A DNA stretch of 35,076 bases from a virus, in IMG/VR virus record IMGVR_UViG_3300037963_001806, positions 1-35,076 of that record; one strand, given 5' to 3'. The first letter of the stretch is position 1. Each line of letters starts with the position of its first letter. Shown here in pieces: positions 791 through 35,076 of the stretch. The notes under the pieces are model-generated. The model was given only the letters and a program-made list of their open reading frames with translations, made no database searches and was not told the DNA's origin. The translations under genes and the position numbers were made by a program.

Positions 791-946
791 CCGGTGTGTC
801 ACATGGCTATACGTTCGGTTGCCTGTGTGACGCCCATGGCGCAGGGGAAAAATAAAAACGCCGCCGGCCACGAAAAGCGACCCTTCCCCCCCCTACCCTG
901 CCCGGTGCGTAGGGGGGACATCACAAAAATATTTCGGAGTTTTTTC
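791..946. promoter_or_regulatory. Structured non-coding region between replication and packaging genes
   Basis: This 156-bp gap holds two inverted repeats. GTCACA (798-803) pairs with TGTGAC (826-831). A C-run/G-run stem, CCCCCCTAC (888-896) with GTAGGGGGG (909-917), has a 12-nt loop. There is no T-tract after the second stem, so it is not a normal intrinsic terminator. Lying just upstream of the terminase cluster, it is a sensible place for a late promoter or a packaging (cos/pac) signal, but neither is proven. I see no convincing -35/-10 pair. Confidence 0.45.
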
Positions 947-1162
947 ATGAATTTCGCATCTGCCATCACCACCGCCCTATCTGCCCTCCCAGAGGCCAAG
1001 CGTTTAGACATGGCCGTTGCCCTGGCCGCGCACTTTATTGGCCTGTATGTGGCGACAGAGCGGCATGTATCGGCCGGCTATGCGCGAAAAGACCCCGACC
1101 GTAAGGCGGTGCCCATTGGTGACATCATTGCCAAGGCCAGTGAGGCTGCCCGTCATGGATGA
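947..1162 (+). CDS. Small hypothetical protein, 71 aa
   Basis: The ATG at 947 has CGGAG seven bases upstream. A longer in-frame reading from about 794 crosses the structured non-coding region and lacks a ribosome-binding site. The protein begins with an amphipathic alanine/leucine-rich helix and contains no recognised domain. It is the first gene of the packaging-side operon, and its end overlaps the start of the next gene (ATG 1155). Confidence 0.6.
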   Translation: MNFASAITTALSALPEAKRLDMAVALAAHFIGLYVATERHVSAGYARKDPDRKAVPIGDIIAKASEAARHG

Positions 1163-1547
1163 TTTGCGATGCGCCATAATGTTGGCAGTGGGCGAGAAGC
1201 GGATTTCGCTTCGCAAACTATCGTTAATGTTGGGCAAGAACGCCGGTTATTTTCATCACTTTGTAAATTCTGAACGCAAATATTTGAACGAATACGATGC
1301 AATGAGGGTCCGAATGATATTAGCAACTGGCAAGGATAACGGAGTTTTATGTCGAACCTCTGACCCTGTAGTCAATCGTGTGATCCAGCGTTTTGTCGAA
1401 CGTTCAGCGGTTGGGATGGCGCGCTTTGGCGTATCGATGGAGGCGAATGATCAACCGGCGTTGCATTGGATTGAGAACGCCCAGGAGGAGTTGATGGACG
1501 GAATTTTGTACCTGGAGAGACTGAAAGGAGAATTGAGCGATGGCTGA
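1155..1547 (+). CDS. HTH protein with MazG-like C-terminal helix
   Basis: A 130-aa protein starting at ATG 1155. The N-terminal half (about 5-60) looks like a Cro/CI-type helix-turn-helix: 'ISLRKLSLMLGKNAGY' followed by a second helix. The C-terminal helix (about 95-128) has a conserved-looking IENAQEELMD...LERL pattern, with an EExxD motif resembling half of the MazG metal site. That motif recurs in small phage proteins I recall, but a complete MazG active site is absent. It overlaps the gene before (947-1162) and the gene after (1540). It could supply the DNA-binding function that the small terminase here appears to lack. Confidence 0.7.
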   Translation: MDDLRCAIMLAVGEKRISLRKLSLMLGKNAGYFHHFVNSERKYLNEYDAMRVRMILATGKDNGVLCRTSDPVVNRVIQRFVERSAVGMARFGVSMEANDQPALHWIENAQEELMDGILYLERLKGELSDG

Positions 1548-1803
1548 AAGATATGATTTGAAGGTGGTCCGCAAGGGCAAAGATGGAAAGTCGTACAGTA
1601 GCAAGATCGGGTCGGCGTGGCCGTGGCGATCCGGTAAGGACGGTTTCAATTTGACGTTTGACGCCTTGCCCATGGCACAGATGCGTGACGACGGCACGTT
1701 GAGTTGTGACGTGATGATGGCGGAACCGTACAAGGATGACAGCCAGCAACCCCGGCGAAATCCGGACCCACATGCGCCCCTGGATGACGATATTCCGTTT
1801 TGA
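1540..1803 (+). CDS. Small protein with SSB-like acidic C-terminal tip
   Basis: An 87-aa protein starting at ATG 1540 and overlapping the preceding stop. The first 60 residues form a compact beta-rich domain (KVVRKGKDGKSY, IGSAWPWRSGKDGFN, LTFDALP) of a family seen in proteobacterial mobile elements. The last residues are proline-rich and then acidic, ending in DDDIPF. This matches the C-terminal tip of bacterial single-strand DNA-binding protein, which recruits host repair and replication proteins. No OB fold is evident. Binding of host SSB partners is inferred from the tip alone. Confidence 0.75.
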   Translation: MAERYDLKVVRKGKDGKSYSSKIGSAWPWRSGKDGFNLTFDALPMAQMRDDGTLSCDVMMAEPYKDDSQQPRRNPDPHAPLDDDIPF

Positions 1804-1982
1804 TGAATATTACAGATGAGGCACGTCGGAAGGGCCAGGAACAGTTCCGGAAGAACCTCGACCTGGTGCCTAAAGGCGGCATTGCCAATCCAATGAGGGC
1901 GAATGAGGAGTTTGATCGTCTGATTGGTAACCGATGTTTTTGCAACGCCGTTTGTAAGTGCGGGAAGAGGCAAGCGGCATGA
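1803..1982 (+). CDS. Small hypothetical protein, 59 aa
   Basis: The ATG at 1803 overlaps the previous stop (TGATG), and the stop overlaps the next start (ATGA), so it sits tightly coupled between its neighbours. It has an N-terminal charged helix and a cysteine-containing end (CFCNAVCKC) that could bind a metal. The function is not recognised. Confidence 0.6.
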   Translation: MNITDEARRKGQEQFRKNLDLVPKGGIANPMRANEEFDRLIGNRCFCNAVCKCGKRQAA

Positions 1983-2422
1983 GTGGATCACCCAACCCGA
2001 CCGGTCGTTTCGGCGGCGTGAAGAGATTGGAGGACCGTCTAAAGGGCCGGTCGGAGGTGATTGCCCACAACAAGGAGGGTATCGCCCAGACCCTGATCGA
2101 TATCGCCAGGGCGAATTTGACGGATGTAATTACCTGGGATGACCAGGGCAATGTGAAGGTCAAACCGTCGGATCAGATTCCCAATTCGGTTGCGGCCGCT
2201 ATTAAGAAAATCAGGGTGACGAAAAGCAAGGACGGTGATCCGACGCTGGAACTTGAGTTGCATGACAAGGTCAGCGTCTTGCGTGTCCTGGCGAAGAGTG
2301 CCGGCCTGTTGGAGCCGCCGAAAGAGGACGTGGCCGCGCCTTCTGTGGTGGGTATTACGATGCACGGACCCGAAGTGGTAGAGGTGAAGAAGGATGGACG
2401 AGACAGCAAGTCTGAACCTTGA
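1979..2422 (+). CDS. terS: Terminase small subunit
   Basis: A 147-aa protein starting at ATG 1979 (ATGA overlap with the upstream gene). Its central and C-terminal parts (about 60-115: 'DVITWDDQGNVKVKP', 'IKKIRVTK', 'LELHDKVSVLRVLAK') match the C-terminal half of the Terminase_2-type small subunit. The usual N-terminal HTH for DNA recognition is absent or very divergent, and the N-terminus is a short basic region instead. It lies directly upstream of, and overlaps, the large subunit gene. Its role is to recognise viral DNA and regulate the packaging motor. Confidence 0.85.
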   Translation: MSGSPNPTGRFGGVKRLEDRLKGRSEVIAHNKEGIAQTLIDIARANLTDVITWDDQGNVKVKPSDQIPNSVAAAIKKIRVTKSKDGDPTLELELHDKVSVLRVLAKSAGLLEPPKEDVAAPSVVGITMHGPEVVEVKKDGRDSKSEP

Positions 2423-3914
2423 TTTCAAGACCGCGCCGAATGTCTGGAAGTTCCTCCAGGATAATTCCTTTGTGCGTGGCCTGATGGGCCCGGTCGGCAG
2501 TGGGAAGAGTTACGCCTGTGCCGCTGAGATTATGTTGAGGGCCGTCAAACAGAAACCCTCTCCCCGTGACGGTATTCGCTATAGCCGATTCGCTGTTGTC
2601 CGGAACAGCTATCCCATGTTGCGAACGACCACGCTGAAGACATGGATGGAATTGTTTCCTGAAAACATCTGGGGCCGTGCCCACTGGTCCCCACCGATCA
2701 CCCATCACATTAAGCTGCCGTCGAGAGGTGACGCCCATGGCGTCGATTGCGAAGTGATCTTTCTGGCCCTCGACCAGCCGAAGGACGTGCGGAAGTTGCT
2801 ATCGCTGGAACTGACCGGGGCCTGGATCAATGAAGCCAGGGAACTGCCGGCGGCGATCCTGGCGGGACTGTCGCACCGTGTCGGCCGCTACCCGACCAAG
2901 GCCGATGGTGGCGCAAGCTGGCGCGGCATTTGGATGGACACCAACCCGATGGATGATGACCATTGGTATTATAAATATTCGGAGAAGGGTGAAGCGCCGA
3001 AAGGTAAATTCGCCTGGAAGTTTTTCCGCCAACCGGGCGGCGTCCTGGAAGCTGACGCTTCAGAGCTACCGGACGAACCGGAGTTCAATGGGTTCATTCA
3101 GTCTGCCGGTCGCTGGTGGATGACCAATCCCAGCGCGGAGAACTTGCCCAACTTGCCAGCCGGCTACTATGACCAACTGGTCGGCGGCAAGAACCTGGAT
3201 TGGATCAGGTGCTATGCCAAAGGCGAATATACCTTTGTCCAGGAAGGCCGGCCCATCACGCCTGAGTATGACGACGAAGCCATGTCCGTCGACGGCCTGG
3301 AGTTCGACAAATCGTTGCCGCTTCAGATCGGCTTGGACTTTGGACTGACGCCGGCGGCCGTCTTTGGACAGAAACATCCCAGCGGTCAGTGGCGGATCTT
3401 GCATGAGCTTGTGACCTTCGACATGGGCCTGGAGCGGTTCGGCAATCAGTTGAAGTCGGAAATTGAAATTATGTTCCCCAATTCGGAGGTGATTGTCTGG
3501 GGTGACCCGGCCGGTCAGCAACGCGATCAGATATTCGAGGTCACGGCCTTCGACCATTTGAAGACCCTGGGCCTCTTGGCAAGACCGGCGGCGACCAACG
3601 ATTGGAAGACCCGCCGGGAAGCCATGGCCGCACCGATGATCCGGTACTATGACAAAAAGCCGGGATTGATGATCGACAAGAAATGCCAGCGCACCCGCAA
3701 GGCCCTGGCCGGCGGCTATTACTTCAGCCGTGTAGCAATGGGATCAGGCCAGGAACGGTTTCGGGACGTTCCGACAAAGAACGAGCATAGCCACGTTGGT
3801 GACGCATACGGCTATCTGGTTCTCCAGGGTGAACACAAGCGCATGACCAAACGGCCGATGGCGTTTTCTCGTATGCCGGTGGCGTCGTCGGACTTCGATG
3901 TCTTTGCTCAGTGA
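2394..3914 (+). CDS. terL: Terminase large subunit (packaging ATPase/nuclease)
   Basis: A 506-aa protein of normal family length. The ATPase Walker A motif GPVGSGKS is at residues about 32-39, a Walker B-type 'TGAWINEARE' at about 141-150, and a DTNP coupling motif near 182-185. The RNase H-like nuclease domain shows acidic motifs in 'IGLDFGLTP' (about 312-320), 'VIVWGDPAG' (about 366-374) and 'HSHVGDAYG' (about 465-473). It cuts concatemeric DNA and pumps it into the prohead through the portal at 4849. It starts inside the end of terS, so the two are translationally coupled. Confidence 0.95.
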   Translation: MDETASLNLDFKTAPNVWKFLQDNSFVRGLMGPVGSGKSYACAAEIMLRAVKQKPSPRDGIRYSRFAVVRNSYPMLRTTTLKTWMELFPENIWGRAHWSPPITHHIKLPSRGDAHGVDCEVIFLALDQPKDVRKLLSLELTGAWINEARELPAAILAGLSHRVGRYPTKADGGASWRGIWMDTNPMDDDHWYYKYSEKGEAPKGKFAWKFFRQPGGVLEADASELPDEPEFNGFIQSAGRWWMTNPSAENLPNLPAGYYDQLVGGKNLDWIRCYAKGEYTFVQEGRPITPEYDDEAMSVDGLEFDKSLPLQIGLDFGLTPAAVFGQKHPSGQWRILHELVTFDMGLERFGNQLKSEIEIMFPNSEVIVWGDPAGQQRDQIFEVTAFDHLKTLGLLARPAATNDWKTRREAMAAPMIRYYDKKPGLMIDKKCQRTRKALAGGYYFSRVAMGSGQERFRDVPTKNEHSHVGDAYGYLVLQGEHKRMTKRPMAFSRMPVASSDFDVFAQ

Positions 3915-26572: not shown

Positions 26573-26589
26573 CACCAGCCCCATAGTTT
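26553..26589. terminator. Bidirectional terminator between convergent operons
   Basis: Stem GGGCTGG (26558-26564) / CCAGCCC (26575-26581), flanked by AAACT (26553-26557) and AGTTT (26585-26589), which can extend it past a three-base bulge. The lipoprotein gene ends inside it from the left and the leftward LexA-like gene ends at its right edge, so it separates late and leftward transcription. Confidence 0.7.
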
Positions 26590-26816
26590 CAGTCGATCAG
26601 TGTTAACGATCTTGGTTGACCTGGAAGCAGTTGCAAGTGGCCTCTCGCCACCAAGTGATGGATGATGCGATGCACGGCACTGGTTGACCGCAAGTTCGAC
26701 AACGTCATCAGTTCTTCATAGGAAGGCGCGTGACCGTTTTCGTCGGTGAACGTCTTAATCAGCGTCTTCATATGTTGCTGCTTGGGCGTCAGGCCCAGCT
26801 TGGTTGGCGCGTTCAT
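26589..26816 (-). CDS. LexA-type winged-helix protein without protease domain
   Basis: A 75-aa protein. 'LTPKQQHMKTLIKTFTDENGHAPSYEELMTLSNLRSTSAVHRIIHHLVARGHLQLLPGQPRSL' follows the LexA N-terminal DNA-binding domain closely (start helix, 'G.APSYEEL', recognition helix, wing). The self-cleavage domain of LexA is missing. It is the last gene of the leftward operon and overlaps the annealing-protein gene (ATGA). It may bind SOS-like operators or control its own operon. Confidence 0.8.
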   Translation of the reverse strand: MNAPTKLGLTPKQQHMKTLIKTFTDENGHAPSYEELMTLSNLRSTSAVHRIIHHLVARGHLQLLPGQPRSLTLID

Positions 26817-29189: not shown

Positions 29190-29217
29190 TCTATAATCGA
29201 TTCTATTTTCTTAACAA
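29190..29217 (-). promoter_or_regulatory. Possible promoter for the leftward recombination operon
   Basis: Reading leftward, TTGTTA (29217-29212) and TATAGA (29195-29190) are separated by 16 nt; each is a 4/6 match. It overlaps the end of int and would read through attP into the small TM peptide, exonuclease and annealing genes. The surrounding AT-rich stretch (29170-29215) supports a control region. Confidence 0.35.
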
Positions 29218-30252
29218 GTGCATTGACTCTCTTGCCAGCCGATTGCGTTCGGCGGCTCTGGTATAGTGTTCAGCCATCTTGCTAGAGTCCCATCCGAAGA
29301 TAGCCATTAGTTGACTGGTGGTGGCTCCGCCCATGGCTGCCTTGACGGCGGCCGCTTTGCGTATCCCGTGGGCACTGCAATGCTCAAGGCCGGCTTCGCG
29401 GCACCGCTTCTTGAACCAGTTGCCGAAACCCCAGCGCGAGAACGGGCGTTTGAATTGTGTGACTAGGTAAGTAAATTTCCCGGTCGGCGTGGCATCGATG
29501 CTGCGACGTAGCTCTGGCAGTATCGGGATAATCCTCTCTTTAGGTTGCCGCTCCCGATTTTTCTGTTCGGTAAATTCCAGCATCCCGTGCCGCTCATGCG
29601 GCGGCCCCAGGAGGACGGCATCTGATCGACGCACTCCGGTGAACTGGAGGATGTCAATAGCCAGCCGTGGCACGGTGCCGATTTCATGCACCGATTCGTA
29701 TAGTTCAATCTCCGCTTCTGTCCAAGTATGAAAACCATGCGGATTGTTTGACGGCAAATAAGGCACGTTGGCGGCTGGGTTGATTTCAGATAGATCACAA
29801 CTGACTGCCCACTTGTAGACCTGGCGCAATGCTTTGACCCTGGCGTTGGCTGCCTCCGGGCGATCGGCCATGCTATCACGGAGGGCGCGAACCTCGCCCG
29901 TGACGACGGAGTTGAATGACCGGGTGCGGCCTAAATGGTCAGCGCAGTGGCTCAGAATAGAAGCGCGAACCTTGCGGGTGCTTTCGCCCAAGCTGCGATA
30001 CTCCGGTGATCTCATGTAAGACATCAGCAACCACCCCAGATCGTGTCCTGGAAGGCGTTGGCTCGACGCACCCATGATGAGCCGCGCATCTTCGATCTCA
30101 TCATAATAAGCTTGGGTGCCGGCCTCCGCATGTATGCGGATAGAACGCTTGCCCTCACGCTTCTGGCTTTCAGTCGGGCGCAGATAGGTGCGGCCGCCAT
30201 CGACCTTGATATTCTTCTCACGGCTATCTTTTTTAATTGGCATGACATCCAT
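29203..30252 (-). CDS. int: Tyrosine integrase
   Basis: A 349-aa protein. The SAM-like core-binding domain covers about 65-160. The catalytic set is visible: Arg in 'TGVRRSD' (208/209), Lys in 'FTEQKNRE' (231), 'HGIRK' (H295, R298), Trp321 in place of the second His (GWDSSKMAEHYTR) and nucleophile Tyr330. It joins phage attP to a host tRNA gene. The N-terminal 60 residues are basic and probably bind arm sites. ATG 30252 is used; ATG 30243 is also possible. Confidence 0.92.
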   Translation of the reverse strand: MDVMPIKKDSREKNIKVDGGRTYLRPTESQKREGKRSIRIHAEAGTQAYYDEIEDARLIMGASSQRLPGHDLGWLLMSYMRSPEYRSLGESTRKVRASILSHCADHLGRTRSFNSVVTGEVRALRDSMADRPEAANARVKALRQVYKWAVSCDLSEINPAANVPYLPSNNPHGFHTWTEAEIELYESVHEIGTVPRLAIDILQFTGVRRSDAVLLGPPHERHGMLEFTEQKNRERQPKERIIPILPELRRSIDATPTGKFTYLVTQFKRPFSRWGFGNWFKKRCREAGLEHCSAHGIRKAAAVKAAMGGATTSQLMAIFGWDSSKMAEHYTRAAERNRLARESMHLLRK

Positions 30253-30284: not shown

Positions 30285-30320
30285 TGGTAAATTCCCATGT
30301 TCAACTATGGTTTTTTACCA
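30285..30320. promoter_or_regulatory. Operator pair before int
   Basis: Two 13-bp sites 23 bp apart: TGGTAAATTCCCA (30285-30297) and, on the other strand, TGGTAAAAAACCA (30308-30320). The second is identical to both sites before the regulator gene; the first matches 10 of 13. They lie 30-70 bp upstream of the int start, and the second overlaps the last codons of the regulator gene. They are the likely binding site of the wHTH regulator. Confidence 0.6.
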
Positions 30321-30796
30321 CTTTTTCTATCCGCTTCTGCGAGTTGTTCTGTCATGCGCGCCAGCATGTTCGACCCGACTATCGATCGTGCAAGATGCAG
30401 CAAATTGATGTCCGTGAGGACAGCCATAACGCCCGCATGAAATTCGTCTTCGAGTTGCTTCGTTGGCCGCATTTCTTCATCGAGAAAACCCGCCGCTTGC
30501 GCCTCACGAATCGTCTTTTGAGCGTTTGAATAATCAATGGCTTTGGAGCTACACTCCGCAGAGACGTTGAGTTCTTCGCCCGTCCAATGCGCGGCCATGA
30601 TGGAATAGAGCAACCCGCGACGTGATAAACTTTTTCTGAAAAAATTGAGCGCCGGGTATCTTTTCGAGCTGCCAATTCGTTTTTGAAAACTGTTGATGAA
30701 TTTTGTGAAATGCAGCACTGCACCTTGGCGCATGGCATCAGAAAATTCGCGTGTTCGCGGATGTTTGGATTCTGGGATTGCCTCAAATTTAAACAT
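30305..30796 (-). CDS. Winged-helix regulator (MarR-like), candidate lysogeny regulator
   Basis: A 163-aa protein; AGGAG lies six bases before ATG 30796. The N-terminal half is basic and helical ('AVLHFTKFINSFQKRIG', 'LNFFRKSLSRRGLLYSIMAAHWTGEELNVSAECSSKAIDYSNAQKTIREAQAAGFL'), reading as a MarR-type wHTH with the recognition helix near 'KAIDYSNAQKTI'. The C-terminus is an amphipathic helical dimer region. It sits between the serine recombinase and int, with paired identical operators before itself and before int, so it likely represses both. No cI-type protease domain is present. Confidence 0.65.
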   Translation of the reverse strand: MFKFEAIPESKHPRTREFSDAMRQGAVLHFTKFINSFQKRIGSSKRYPALNFFRKSLSRRGLLYSIMAAHWTGEELNVSAECSSKAIDYSNAQKTIREAQAAGFLDEEMRPTKQLEDEFHAGVMAVLTDINLLHLARSIVGSNMLARMTEQLAEADRKSGKKP

Positions 30797-30810
30797 TTTT
30801 TGCTCCTAAA

Positions 30811-30849
30811 AAAGTGGTAAAAAACCACTTTAGTTGTGGTAAAAAACCA
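30811..30849. promoter_or_regulatory. Operator pair before the wHTH regulator
   Basis: TGGTAAAAAACCA occurs at 30815-30827 and 30837-30849, starts 22 bp apart. The first is inside a perfect 7-bp-arm palindrome (AAAGTGG...CCACTTT). The pair lies between the serine-recombinase stop and the ribosome-binding site of the regulator. In leftward RNA the first palindrome is followed by a short U-run, so it could alternatively work as a terminator for the recombinase gene. Confidence 0.65.
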
Positions 30850-30862
30850 TTTTGCCTGTGGA

Positions 30863-31699
30863 TTACTTTTTGTTTTTCGCCTGGGCGATAACTCTTTTTA
30901 CGGTTTCCGGACCCCATTGCGTCGGTTTGCGATCCGATTTGGCCCGTTTGACGCCATCAATATCGCTGGCATCCGAATCGGCCTGGAAGGTGAGAACGCC
31001 ACGGGCATTAAGCGCCTTGGCAATACCGCGCAATGAAGTAATACCGGCCGCCTCGATTTCCTGGATGATCGGATAGGTGCGTTTGGCGAACTCTCTGGCG
31101 TTACGCTTCATAGCCGCGCCACCCTTCTTGTAGACCTTGTCGATGTTTGGGTTCCCCAGGCTGGTGATCTTGCGCGACGGGATGACCTCCGTGCCGACCT
31201 TCTTTTCATTGGTCATGTAAAAGCCCTGTTCCCTGATGTCGTCCTGTGCCTTTTTAAGTCCGCGCTTGGTACGCTCTCGCGTTTGCTCGACCTCCAGTTC
31301 CGCAACGGCCGCCATGATGCGCCAGATGAACTTGGTCTGGGCTGGATCTGACAATTGGGGCACGTCACAGGCCACGATGCCGATGCCATGCCTTTCGGAC
31401 AGGTCGGCAATGTGTGACATGAAATTAAAGTTACGGGTCAAGCGGCTCATGGCAGCGACGATGACAACGGCACCAGTGTCAATTGCCATGTTCATCATCT
31501 TGACGAACTCCGGACGCTTATTTTTGCGTCCGCTCTCGACCTCCTTGAAGACGCCTATGACCTCAAGGCCCAGTTCGGCGGCCTTGGTACGAGCCATATC
31601 CTCCTGGGCTTTTGTGCCAAGGCCATCAACACCCTGTTTCCCCGTGGACACACGAAGATACAGGACACAGACCTTGGCGTTGTTTCTAGCCGCAATCAT
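30863..31699 (-). CDS. Serine recombinase (resolvase/invertase family)
   Basis: A 278-aa protein with GGAGGGG before ATG 31699. The catalytic domain has 'YLRVSTGKQG' (Ser18, Arg16), 'EVESGRKNKRPEF' and 'MSRLTRN' (about 84-90), and the E-helix region 'IWRIMAAVAELEVEQTRERTKRGL'. The C-terminal part (about 170-278) contains a recombinase-type HTH ('GITSLRGIAKALNARGVLT...WGPETVKRVIAQ'). It is shorter than large serine integrases and lacks their zinc and coiled-coil domains. As the phage already has a tyrosine integrase, this enzyme may invert or resolve DNA. Confidence 0.88.
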   Translation of the reverse strand: MIAARNNAKVCVLYLRVSTGKQGVDGLGTKAQEDMARTKAAELGLEVIGVFKEVESGRKNKRPEFVKMMNMAIDTGAVVIVAAMSRLTRNFNFMSHIADLSERHGIGIVACDVPQLSDPAQTKFIWRIMAAVAELEVEQTRERTKRGLKKAQDDIREQGFYMTNEKKVGTEVIPSRKITSLGNPNIDKVYKKGGAAMKRNAREFAKRTYPIIQEIEAAGITSLRGIAKALNARGVLTFQADSDASDIDGVKRAKSDRKPTQWGPETVKRVIAQAKNKK

Positions 31700-32617: not shown

Positions 32618-32824
32618 ATGGACACTGAATATCACCAGACAACTTTGCGTATGCCGGCGGATCTAATTGCTAGGCTCAAATCACAAGCGGCCCTGGAACG
32701 TCGGTCGATGACGCAACTGATTGCCGACCTTTGTGCCTTGGGTTTGGAAGCCAGGGCGGAGTCAAACGAGCGGCGGCTGGATGAGTTCCGCAAGCTTGTA
32801 CGGAGCGCCGGCAGTGTCGCATGA
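32618..32824 (+). CDS. Arc-type ribbon-helix-helix regulator
   Basis: A 68-aa protein with AGGA upstream of ATG 32618. 'HQTTLRMPADLIARLKSQAALERRSMTQLIADLCALGLEARA' is a clear RHH fold: beta strand 'TTLRMP', helix A, the turn 'RRSM' and helix B. As the first rightward gene it is placed like Cro/Arc and would bind the divergent region. It overlaps rusA (ATGA). Confidence 0.85.
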   Translation: MDTEYHQTTLRMPADLIARLKSQAALERRSMTQLIADLCALGLEARAESNERRLDEFRKLVRSAGSVA

Positions 32825-33892: not shown

Positions 33893-34017
33893 CTTGTCCG
33901 GAGTGTCATGGCGATGGCTACGTCGAGCGGGAGGGGCCTAACGGGCCCTACGAGGAGCCGTGTCGGCATTGCTATGGCGGCCTGGGAGAGGTGCGTGATG
34001 AGCTGGAGGATGAATGA
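33889..34017 (+). CDS. Tiny DnaJ-like zinc-knuckle protein, 42 aa
   Basis: ATG 33889 overlaps the methyltransferase stop and TGA overlaps the next ATG (ATGA). Two CxxCxGxG-like knuckles are seen, 'CPECHGDGY' and 'CRHCYGGLG', as in the DnaJ zinc domain. The rest is acidic. Similar mini zinc proteins occur in phage replication operons; a role as a chaperone-like or zinc adaptor is only a guess. Confidence 0.75.
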   Translation: MTCPECHGDGYVEREGPNGPYEEPCRHCYGGLGEVRDELEDE

Positions 34018-34688
34018 GCGTTAAGCTGATGAATAGGGTCTGGAAGCACTCCAGGGCCAAGGGAACGGCACGGCTGGTGCTTCTGGCTATTGCTGACCAT
34101 TGCAATACGGCCGGCGTGGCATGGCCGTCGCTGACGAGGCTGGCAAGCTATGTGAATGTCAATAGGCGAAATACAATCAACGCTATAAATCAACTGGTCA
34201 AAATGGGTGAATTGACACGGGTTCACAATGGTCAAACCGGTCGCGCAACGACCTATAAAGTCACTCTAGGTAGTGTCGCTACCGACACCGGTGTCGCTAC
34301 CGACACTAGTGTCGGAGGAGACACGGGGGGAGTGTCGGAGGAGACACCCCAACCACCATTGAACCGTCAAGAGTCTTTATTAGGGGAAAGCAATTTCGAC
34401 GCATTTTGGAAAGCATATCCGAAGAAGGTCGGAAAGGGTGCGGCCGTCAAAGCCTACGATAAAGCACTCAAGGGAACACCCCACGACATCATCATGGAAG
34501 GGCTGGAAAGGTACGATCCTGACCCTGGCTATATTTGCAACCCAGCCACGTGGCTGAATGAGATGAGGTATTTTGATGAACCAACTGACTATACGAAAAC
34601 CGCCAGACGCAATCAGGACCGACAAGGCGGTGGTGAAATCATTGATGCTTACAGCCGGTTTATCAATCGAAGAGAGACTATCAACTGA
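34014..34688 (+). CDS. Replication initiator, lambda O-like, with iterons in the gene
   Basis: A 224-aa protein. The N-terminal wHTH (about 1-80: 'LMNRVWKHSRAKGTARLVLLAIADHCNTAGVAWPSLTRLASYVNVNRRNTINAINQLVKMGELTRV') is of the phage replication type. A linker of Thr/Gly/Asp (about 85-110) is encoded by four iterons. The C-terminal part 'FDAFWKAYPKKVGKGAAVKAYDKAL...DPDPGYICNPATWLNEMRYFD' is the domain found in O/DnaT-like initiators. It would bind the iterons and load host helicase with the next gene product. Confidence 0.88.
   Translation: MSVKLMNRVWKHSRAKGTARLVLLAIADHCNTAGVAWPSLTRLASYVNVNRRNTINAINQLVKMGELTRVHNGQTGRATTYKVTLGSVATDTGVATDTSVGGDTGGVSEETPQPPLNRQESLLGESNFDAFWKAYPKKVGKGAAVKAYDKALKGTPHDIIMEGLERYDPDPGYICNPATWLNEMRYFDEPTDYTKTARRNQDRQGGGEIIDAYSRFINRRETIN
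34273..34347. other. ori: Replication origin iterons (four GTGTC-N6-GACAC sites)
   Basis: Four 16-bp sites: GTGTCGCTACCGACAC at 34273-34288 and 34291-34306, GTGTCGGAGGAGACAC at 34309-34324 and 34332-34347. Starts are 18, 18 and 23 bp apart. Each is a palindrome with 5-6-bp arms. They lie within the O-like gene in its linker, as the lambda origin lies in gene O. Confidence 0.75.
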
Positions 34689-35076
34689 GTTCGACTTCCA
34701 GGGCTACATCATCACCAGCCACGTCGGTGACGATGAACTGGCCGAAGCACACAAGGCATTGTCTGCAACGATGATCCCGGCTGAAGACAATCAGATAGCC
34801 AAGGCGCTGCTGAAGCTGAGAGCGTTGACCTCGCATAGGAATGAAGGGGCCGACATCGATATCATCTTGGAGGCTTATGTCGAGAAGCTCAGAGAATATC
34901 CCAGGGATGCCGTCCTGGAGAGCCTGGGCAAGATGTCGGATCAATCAAAGTGGTTCCCAAGCTGGATAGAGATCAAGGACGATGTCGAGTTCCGTTGTCA
35001 GCACAGGGTGCAAATGTTGAAAGCGATTGAGAGGAAGCGAGATGAGCAAGGAAGACGTGCCATCGTTCGGGAAATC
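34576..35076 (+). CDS. Replication partner protein (helicase-loader position), crosses the join
   Basis: ATG 34576 has GAGGT seven bases upstream and overlaps the O-like gene by 113 bp. The frame continues through the circle join to a TAG at 117, giving 172 aa. It is helical: 'IPAEDNQIAKALLKLRALTSH', then 'ILEAYVEKLREYPRDAVLESLGKMSDQSKWFPSWIEIKDDV', a pattern common in small phage proteins placed after O-like initiators. The position suggests a lambda P/DnaC-like role, but there is no Walker motif, so the job is inferred from context. Confidence 0.7.
   Translation, partial: MNQLTIRKPPDAIRTDKAVVKSLMLTAGLSIEERLSTEFDFQGYIITSHVGDDELAEAHKALSATMIPAEDNQIAKALLKLRALTSHRNEGADIDIILEAYVEKLREYPRDAVLESLGKMSDQSKWFPSWIEIKDDVEFRCQHRVQMLKAIERKRDEQGRRAIVREI
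34978..35076. repeat. 99-bp terminal direct repeat (right copy)
   Basis: Identical to bases 1-99; see the left copy. It lies within the coding sequence of the gene starting at 34576. Removing one copy gives a closed circle of 34,977 bp with all reading frames intact. Confidence 0.95.

Follow-up and report, generated by a model that had tools for sequence, protein, structure and literature searches.

A viral regulator gene bordered by paired palindromes, with alleles exchanged between phages

Paired palindromes at both ends of a regulator gene

The window, by which we mean the whole 35,076-bp stretch of viral DNA analyzed here, begins and ends with the same 99 bp (positions 1-99 and 34978-35076), implying that the genome is probably complete, with a circular map of 34,977 bp. 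Its minus strand carries the open reading frame of a 163-aa regulator (30305..30796) with a predicted MarR-like winged helix, conserved in seven viral contigs and preceded by an AGGAG Shine-Dalgarno sequence at 30803-30807. Upstream lies a serine recombinase/resolvase gene (30863..31699, minus strand; Resolvase, E 5.9e-29). Downstream is a tyrosine integrase gene, int (29203..30252, minus strand; Phage_integrase, E 1.2e-9; phrog_1, E 1.1e-24). Replication initiator genes are also present, apart from this region; one of them (phrog_270; 34014-34688, plus strand) contains four repeats at 34273-34347, in two pairs of palindromic-looking elements, GTGTCGCTACCGACAC twice and AGTGTCGGAGGAGACAC twice, which are a probable phage replication origin.

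A preliminary description of this DNA had proposed that three exact copies and one 10/13 copy of a 13-bp motif form two pairs, with start spacings of 23 and 22 bp, one pair before the regulator gene and the other before int. All four copies and both spacings were reproduced and the layout was confirmed; moreover, the pairs accompany the regulator in every relative found. At the 5' end, the outer site (30837..30849, minus strand, TGGTTTTTTACCA; -53 to -41 from the regulator start codon) and the inner site (30815..30827, minus strand, TGGTTTTTTACCA; -31 to -19) start 22 bp apart, and each is an exact copy of the 13-mer on the plus strand. At the 3' end, where the spacing is 23 bp, the proximal site (30308..30320, minus strand, TGGTAAAAAACCA; +476) is an exact copy as the reverse complement, reading TGGTTTTTTACCA on the plus strand. 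The distal site (30285..30297, minus strand, TGGGAATTTACCA; +499, 32 bp before int) reads TGGTAAATTCCCA on the plus strand and differs at three of the 13 positions, although only one mismatch is left when just the 4+4 arm bases are scored. Every site is a palindrome of the form TGGT-N5-ACCA with an A/T-rich center, TGGT-A5-ACCA in the exact copies, so the strand on which it is read is nearly irrelevant. The proximal 3' site is part of the regulator gene itself, forming its last 13 coding bases and abutting the stop codon.

The three exact sites account for every occurrence of the 13-mer in the whole 35,076-bp record. Counts of 13-mers with up to three mismatches, 14 in the window against 8.8 expected, are weak evidence when taken alone. 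A site matrix was built from the relatives' sites only, with those of the window excluded. Run over the window, this matrix ranked the four sites first to fourth (19.8, 19.8, 19.8, and 16.9), the next best match scoring 10.4, and the two pairs scored 39.6 and 36.7, whereas no pair in 30 simulated sequences scored above 19.5. In the genome-wide motif scan that the preliminary description had suggested, then, the four sites come out on top and no crowd of random matches appears elsewhere in the window; by the same matrix, the rest of the window is free of comparable sites, with none at the divergent early region near 32.6 kb.

A further conserved element, the box TAATCCACA (TNATYCACA; 30857..30865, minus strand), lies 7 bp outside the 5' pair and contains the resolvase stop codon. 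The box is found at exactly this distance in all six aligned cassettes, and in five of the six it spans the stop codon of the upstream gene. It may serve as a -35 element or as a DnaA box.

The regulator protein and its relatives

The 163-aa protein has no useful match in Pfam, PHROG, or NCBIfam, and a profile search of PDB sequences with it found none. A MarR profile match is absent both in this protein (0 Pfam families) and in the four homologs tested. Nor does it match HTH_3/HTH_26 or S24 domains, whereas the gene neighboring the homolog in contig L014 has both. Searches of named phages and plasmids with tblastn gave no match. Two pattern-based scans of bacterial genome contigs yielded no relative, a kind of search that would not prove absence; Rfam and tRNA scans were also without matches.

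An AlphaFold2 model from five sequences has a pLDDT of 69.9, its best part (above 85) being around residues 91-120. The model's helices (residues 13-43, 48-54, 57-72, 78-84, 89-101, 113-127, and 130-159) follow the helix order of a MarR protein, and the winged helix, with a very short wing, is the best-modeled part. MarR chains lead both the Foldseek search with the first model, at E 0.13, and the VIA-align comparison, at Z 8.9 and 3.2 Å over 105 residues, a score to be read with the tool's own warning that Z values of 7-8 are common. A fold search of BFVD returned a best E of 4e-3, with no informative named match. These predictions suggest, but do not prove, a MarR-like fold, which we assign with moderate confidence. 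The view in the preliminary description that the regulator is unlike CI and lacks a protease domain holds up, inasmuch as no S24 domain is found and the predicted fold is a MarR-like winged helix. With MarR regulators such as TcaR, SlyA, and MexR, the protein by prediction shares helix order and winged helix, and it has palindromic operator-like sites beside its own gene, as they do; it differs in having no Pfam MarR sequence match and a very short wing, and its model is of moderate confidence.

Homologs were found in seven IMG/VR contigs, representing five distinct proteins with 80% (L004), 81% (L010), 58% (L032/L029), 58% (L039), and 53% (L014/L015) identity. Extending the motif scan to these relatives, as had also been suggested, located sites at both ends of the gene in all of them, in degraded form in L014. 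In the window, L004, L010, and L032, the sites are of the N5 type, and their offsets differ by no more than 1 bp. The 5' sites of L039 are of an N6 type (TGGTGTTTTTACCG and TGGTGGTTTTACCA), still spaced 22 bp apart. In L014, the proximal 3' site (TGGTTTGAAACCA) is good and the distal one (TGGTTTATTACAT) weaker, whereas the 5' sites are poor. The distal 3' site is identical in the window, L004, L010, and L039. In L014, the regulator gene ends ahead of the 3' pair, implying that what is conserved is a DNA site rather than the C-terminal peptide that the same DNA encodes elsewhere.

When each site may have up to one arm mismatch and the spacing may be 21-25 bp, a pair is present at ten of the twelve ends of six cassettes, versus 7 among 22,508 stretches drawn at random from these loci. 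A blind scan of viral contigs for two TGGT-N5-ACCA palindromes separated by 9-10 bp returned 21 contigs. In four of these, the regulator gene lies precisely at the sites; two of the four (L029 and L032) were new. In the other 17, the pairs fall mostly in unrelated genes; some lie inside replication genes, and most of the rest look like chance occurrences.

Two side observations belong here. Paired TGGT-N5-ACCA palindromes occur inside replication-type genes in L020 (2800-2835), L025 (6755-6789), and L009 (6572-6608), those of L020 and L025 being Phage_rep_O genes; these pairs are probably iterons, the same site format reused in another role. Within the regulator gene, codons 118-129 (window 30410-30445) are 12 consecutive codons identical at the DNA level in the window, L004, and L010 (shuffle p 0.0007). 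The rest of the gene has many synonymous changes, and L032 does not share this conservation; the stretch may reflect either recent gene conversion or a DNA or RNA signal.

Gene neighbors and allele exchange

The cassette sits in three kinds of neighborhood. In the window, L004, and L039, it has resolvase on one side and int on the other; in L014 and L032, its neighbors are int and an S24 CI-like gene; and in L010, it separates a divergent XRE repressor gene from a small XRE gene. The next gene starts 32-67 bp beyond the distal 3' site. Across three phage lineages, the sites stay with the regulator while the neighbors differ. Because it is the regulator that the pairs track, rather than int, resolvase, cI, or XRE genes, we infer that the regulator is the likeliest protein to bind them.

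The phages that share the cassette are not all related. The portal and terminase proteins of the window match those of the L004 phage at 77%-83% and have no match in the L010, L014, and L029 phages, which means that the cassette is common to unrelated phages; between the window and L010, DNA similarity is confined to the cassette. Around similar integrases in two named phages, no neighboring gene is annotated as a regulator. Methylophilales phage MEP301 (L047), a relative by its portal (55.6%), has recombinase, YqaJ, and ERF genes (935-3055) in the same order as in the window, with no annotated regulator or int between them. Gene order here is consistent with regulator and int having been added, as a lysogeny module, to the window's backbone.

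Two backbones each occur with two alleles of the cassette, L032 versus L014 and L004 versus L039. Over most of their length, the flanks are at least about 90% identical (74%-100% in single 50-bp bins), versus 40%-80% identity between alleles from the TNATYCACA box to the 3' pair in both backbones; the breakpoints fall at the pairs. L004 and L039 have the same 3' pair despite their different proteins, so the exchanged unit is the gene with its 5' pair; the resolvase gene upstream of the cassette in the window lies outside this unit.

A local regulatory model and its alternatives

A scan of the window from 29.1 to 33.0 kb found no consensus promoter, and the placement of promoters therefore rests on the relatives. 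At the 5' end, L010 has a candidate promoter, TCCACA-18-CATAAT (9/12), with the TCCACA lying within the TNATYCACA box; the outer 5' site falls across the -10 element and the inner site at the transcription start, a geometry of repression. The other cassettes have no good -10 element at this end. At the 3' end of L014 and L032, a candidate promoter, TTGACA-18-TAATCT (9/12), starts one base past the distal site, which would thus be centered near -43, with its partner near -66. These positions are comparable to those of lambda CI at PRM.

We propose that the 163-aa protein would act as a dimeric, MarR-like winged-helix transcription regulator with TGGT-N5-ACCA as its operator, and that each pair would hold two dimers side by side, two helical turns apart. 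Occupation of the 5' pair would repress the regulator's own promoter. Occupation of the 3' pair would control the next gene: int in the window, L004, and L039, the S24 CI-like repressor in L014 and L032, and the small XRE gene in L010. The gene and its 5' pair are traded between phages as one unit. What the sequences show directly is the sites with their spacing, the linkage of these sites to the gene, and the exchange of alleles between conserved flanks; like the binding itself, the autorepression and the sign of action on the neighbor are what we infer. In L014 and L032, the distal site abuts the TTGACA of the -35 element, the place of an activator, and activation of the neighbor, a CII-like logic, is slightly preferred there over repression. 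Counting against this scheme, the int start 32 bp past the distal site would leave an activator-type promoter little room for a leader. The poor 5' sites of L014, the moderate confidence of the fold model, the lack of a MarR sequence match, and the failure of the promoter scan to find a consensus promoter in the window also weigh against it. Overall, we regard it as reasonably probable that the protein is a dimeric winged-helix autoregulator, acting at the 5' pair to repress itself and at the 3' pair to control the adjacent gene.

The first alternative to weigh is that the protein is the phage's equivalent of CI, with the pairs as its key operators and allele exchange as a change of superinfection immunity. 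The swapping of regulator and 5' operators between conserved flanks does resemble the exchange of an immunity region, and the window proteins that were tested include no S24 repressor. However, the protein is unlikely to be a whole-phage repressor of the CI type, given that the window has no sites near 32.6 kb, at the divergent early region, or anywhere else outside the cassette; L014 and L032 have an S24 repressor of their own beside the cassette, just as L010 has an XRE repressor; and L004 and L039 have identical 3' pairs although their proteins differ. The suggestion in the preliminary description of an unfamiliar lysogeny switch is thus unsupported in the CI sense, a reading that we consider improbable, and a local autoregulator of lysogeny-module genes fits better. 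Lambda controls lysogeny through CI and CII, with an autoregulated DNA-binding protein and tandem operators. The proposed cassette would have in common with it the autoregulated DNA-binding protein with its tandem operators, a site near -43 of the neighboring cI promoter (L014 and L032), and the immunity-like exchange of regulator and operators, but its protein has another predicted fold and no S24 domain, and there are no sites at other phage promoters. Elsewhere, the window encodes two other candidate regulators, a 75-aa LexA-type DNA-binding domain without a protease (26589-26816, minus strand) and, at the divergent early region, an Arc-like ribbon-helix-helix protein (32618-32824, plus strand); either might be the real early switch.

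A second possibility, to which we give slightly less credence, is that only the 5' pair binds protein and that the 3' pair, operator-like in appearance, is an RNA element such as an intrinsic terminator or attenuator. Indeed, the 3' pair folds as RNA, with z scores of -3.7 to -4.2 in the window, L004, and L032 and of -2.1 in L010 and L014, and T-rich sequence follows the fold. Nevertheless, such folding is built into two palindromes that share one motif, the hairpin does not form from that motif at the 5' end, and a terminator scan makes no call at the 3' pair. L014 keeps a perfect palindromic site, but there different arms pair and no T-run comes right after the stem.

Repeats spaced 22 bp apart next to a DnaA-box-like TNATYCACA would also suit an iteron-type replication or partition site with its initiator, and similar palindrome pairs do lie inside the Phage_rep_O genes of other phages. 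We think this very unlikely: the protein matches no replication family, the window has replication initiator genes of its own, including the one with a repeat array at 34273-34347, and the sites flank the regulator gene rather than lying inside it. Less probable still is a mobile element, with the pairs as its ends and the protein as its mobility factor. The cassette does occur in unrelated phages, with identity ending at the pairs, but the protein matches no transposase or nuclease family, and, as the 3' pair stays with the backbone in the swaps, homologous recombination suffices. Finally, we reject a role for the pairs as recombinase binding sites (int arm or core sites, or resolvase res sites), the least credible reading, because, although those of the window sit between a serine recombinase and a tyrosine integrase, the pairs remain with the regulator when the recombinases differ, being kept in L010, where neither recombinase is directly adjacent, and in L014 and L032, where a different integrase is on the other side.

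Returning to the local autoregulator, we compared it with arrangements described in other phages. The nearest is that of temperate T7-like phages such as LUZ100, for which the account in PMC10134795, citing Boeckman et al., 2022, places a MarR-like regulator directly upstream of int and proposes a part for it in the lysis-lysogeny decision. As in that account, the regulator is directly upstream of int on the same strand in the window, L004, and L039, although it is MarR-like here by predicted fold only. The same account proposes binding sites that flank a phage RNA polymerase promoter (PMC10134795), whereas here the sites flank the regulator itself. The present cassette, moreover, also occurs beside repressor genes instead of int, and no RNA polymerase match was found in the subset of large window ORFs tested. 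The stoperators of cluster A mycobacteriophages, asymmetric 13-bp sites that are bound by a monomer, number more than 20 per genome, and lie in some cases between genes (PMC9283540), are similar in their length and in that some sites are intergenic; they differ in that the window has four sites only, all palindromic.

More broadly, and tentatively, the cassettes may belong to an undescribed portable family in which a winged-helix regulator, bordered on either side by an operator pair, plugs into an adjoining int, cI, or XRE gene and has alleles that are traded within and between unrelated phages; it would repress itself and activate the neighboring gene, so that an unrelated protein would fill a CII-like role; we hold this fuller version to be possible but doubtful. 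For annotation, a gene of about 490 bp with a pair of TGGT-N5-ACCA sites at either end is a signature for a protein that current profile libraries miss. An unclassified regulator family is thus defined together with its probable operator, and the pairing is directly testable by gel shift and reporters. The natural swaps in two backbones provide ready-made pairs for examining the effect of the cassette on the expression of integrase or repressor and on the compatibility of co-infecting phages.
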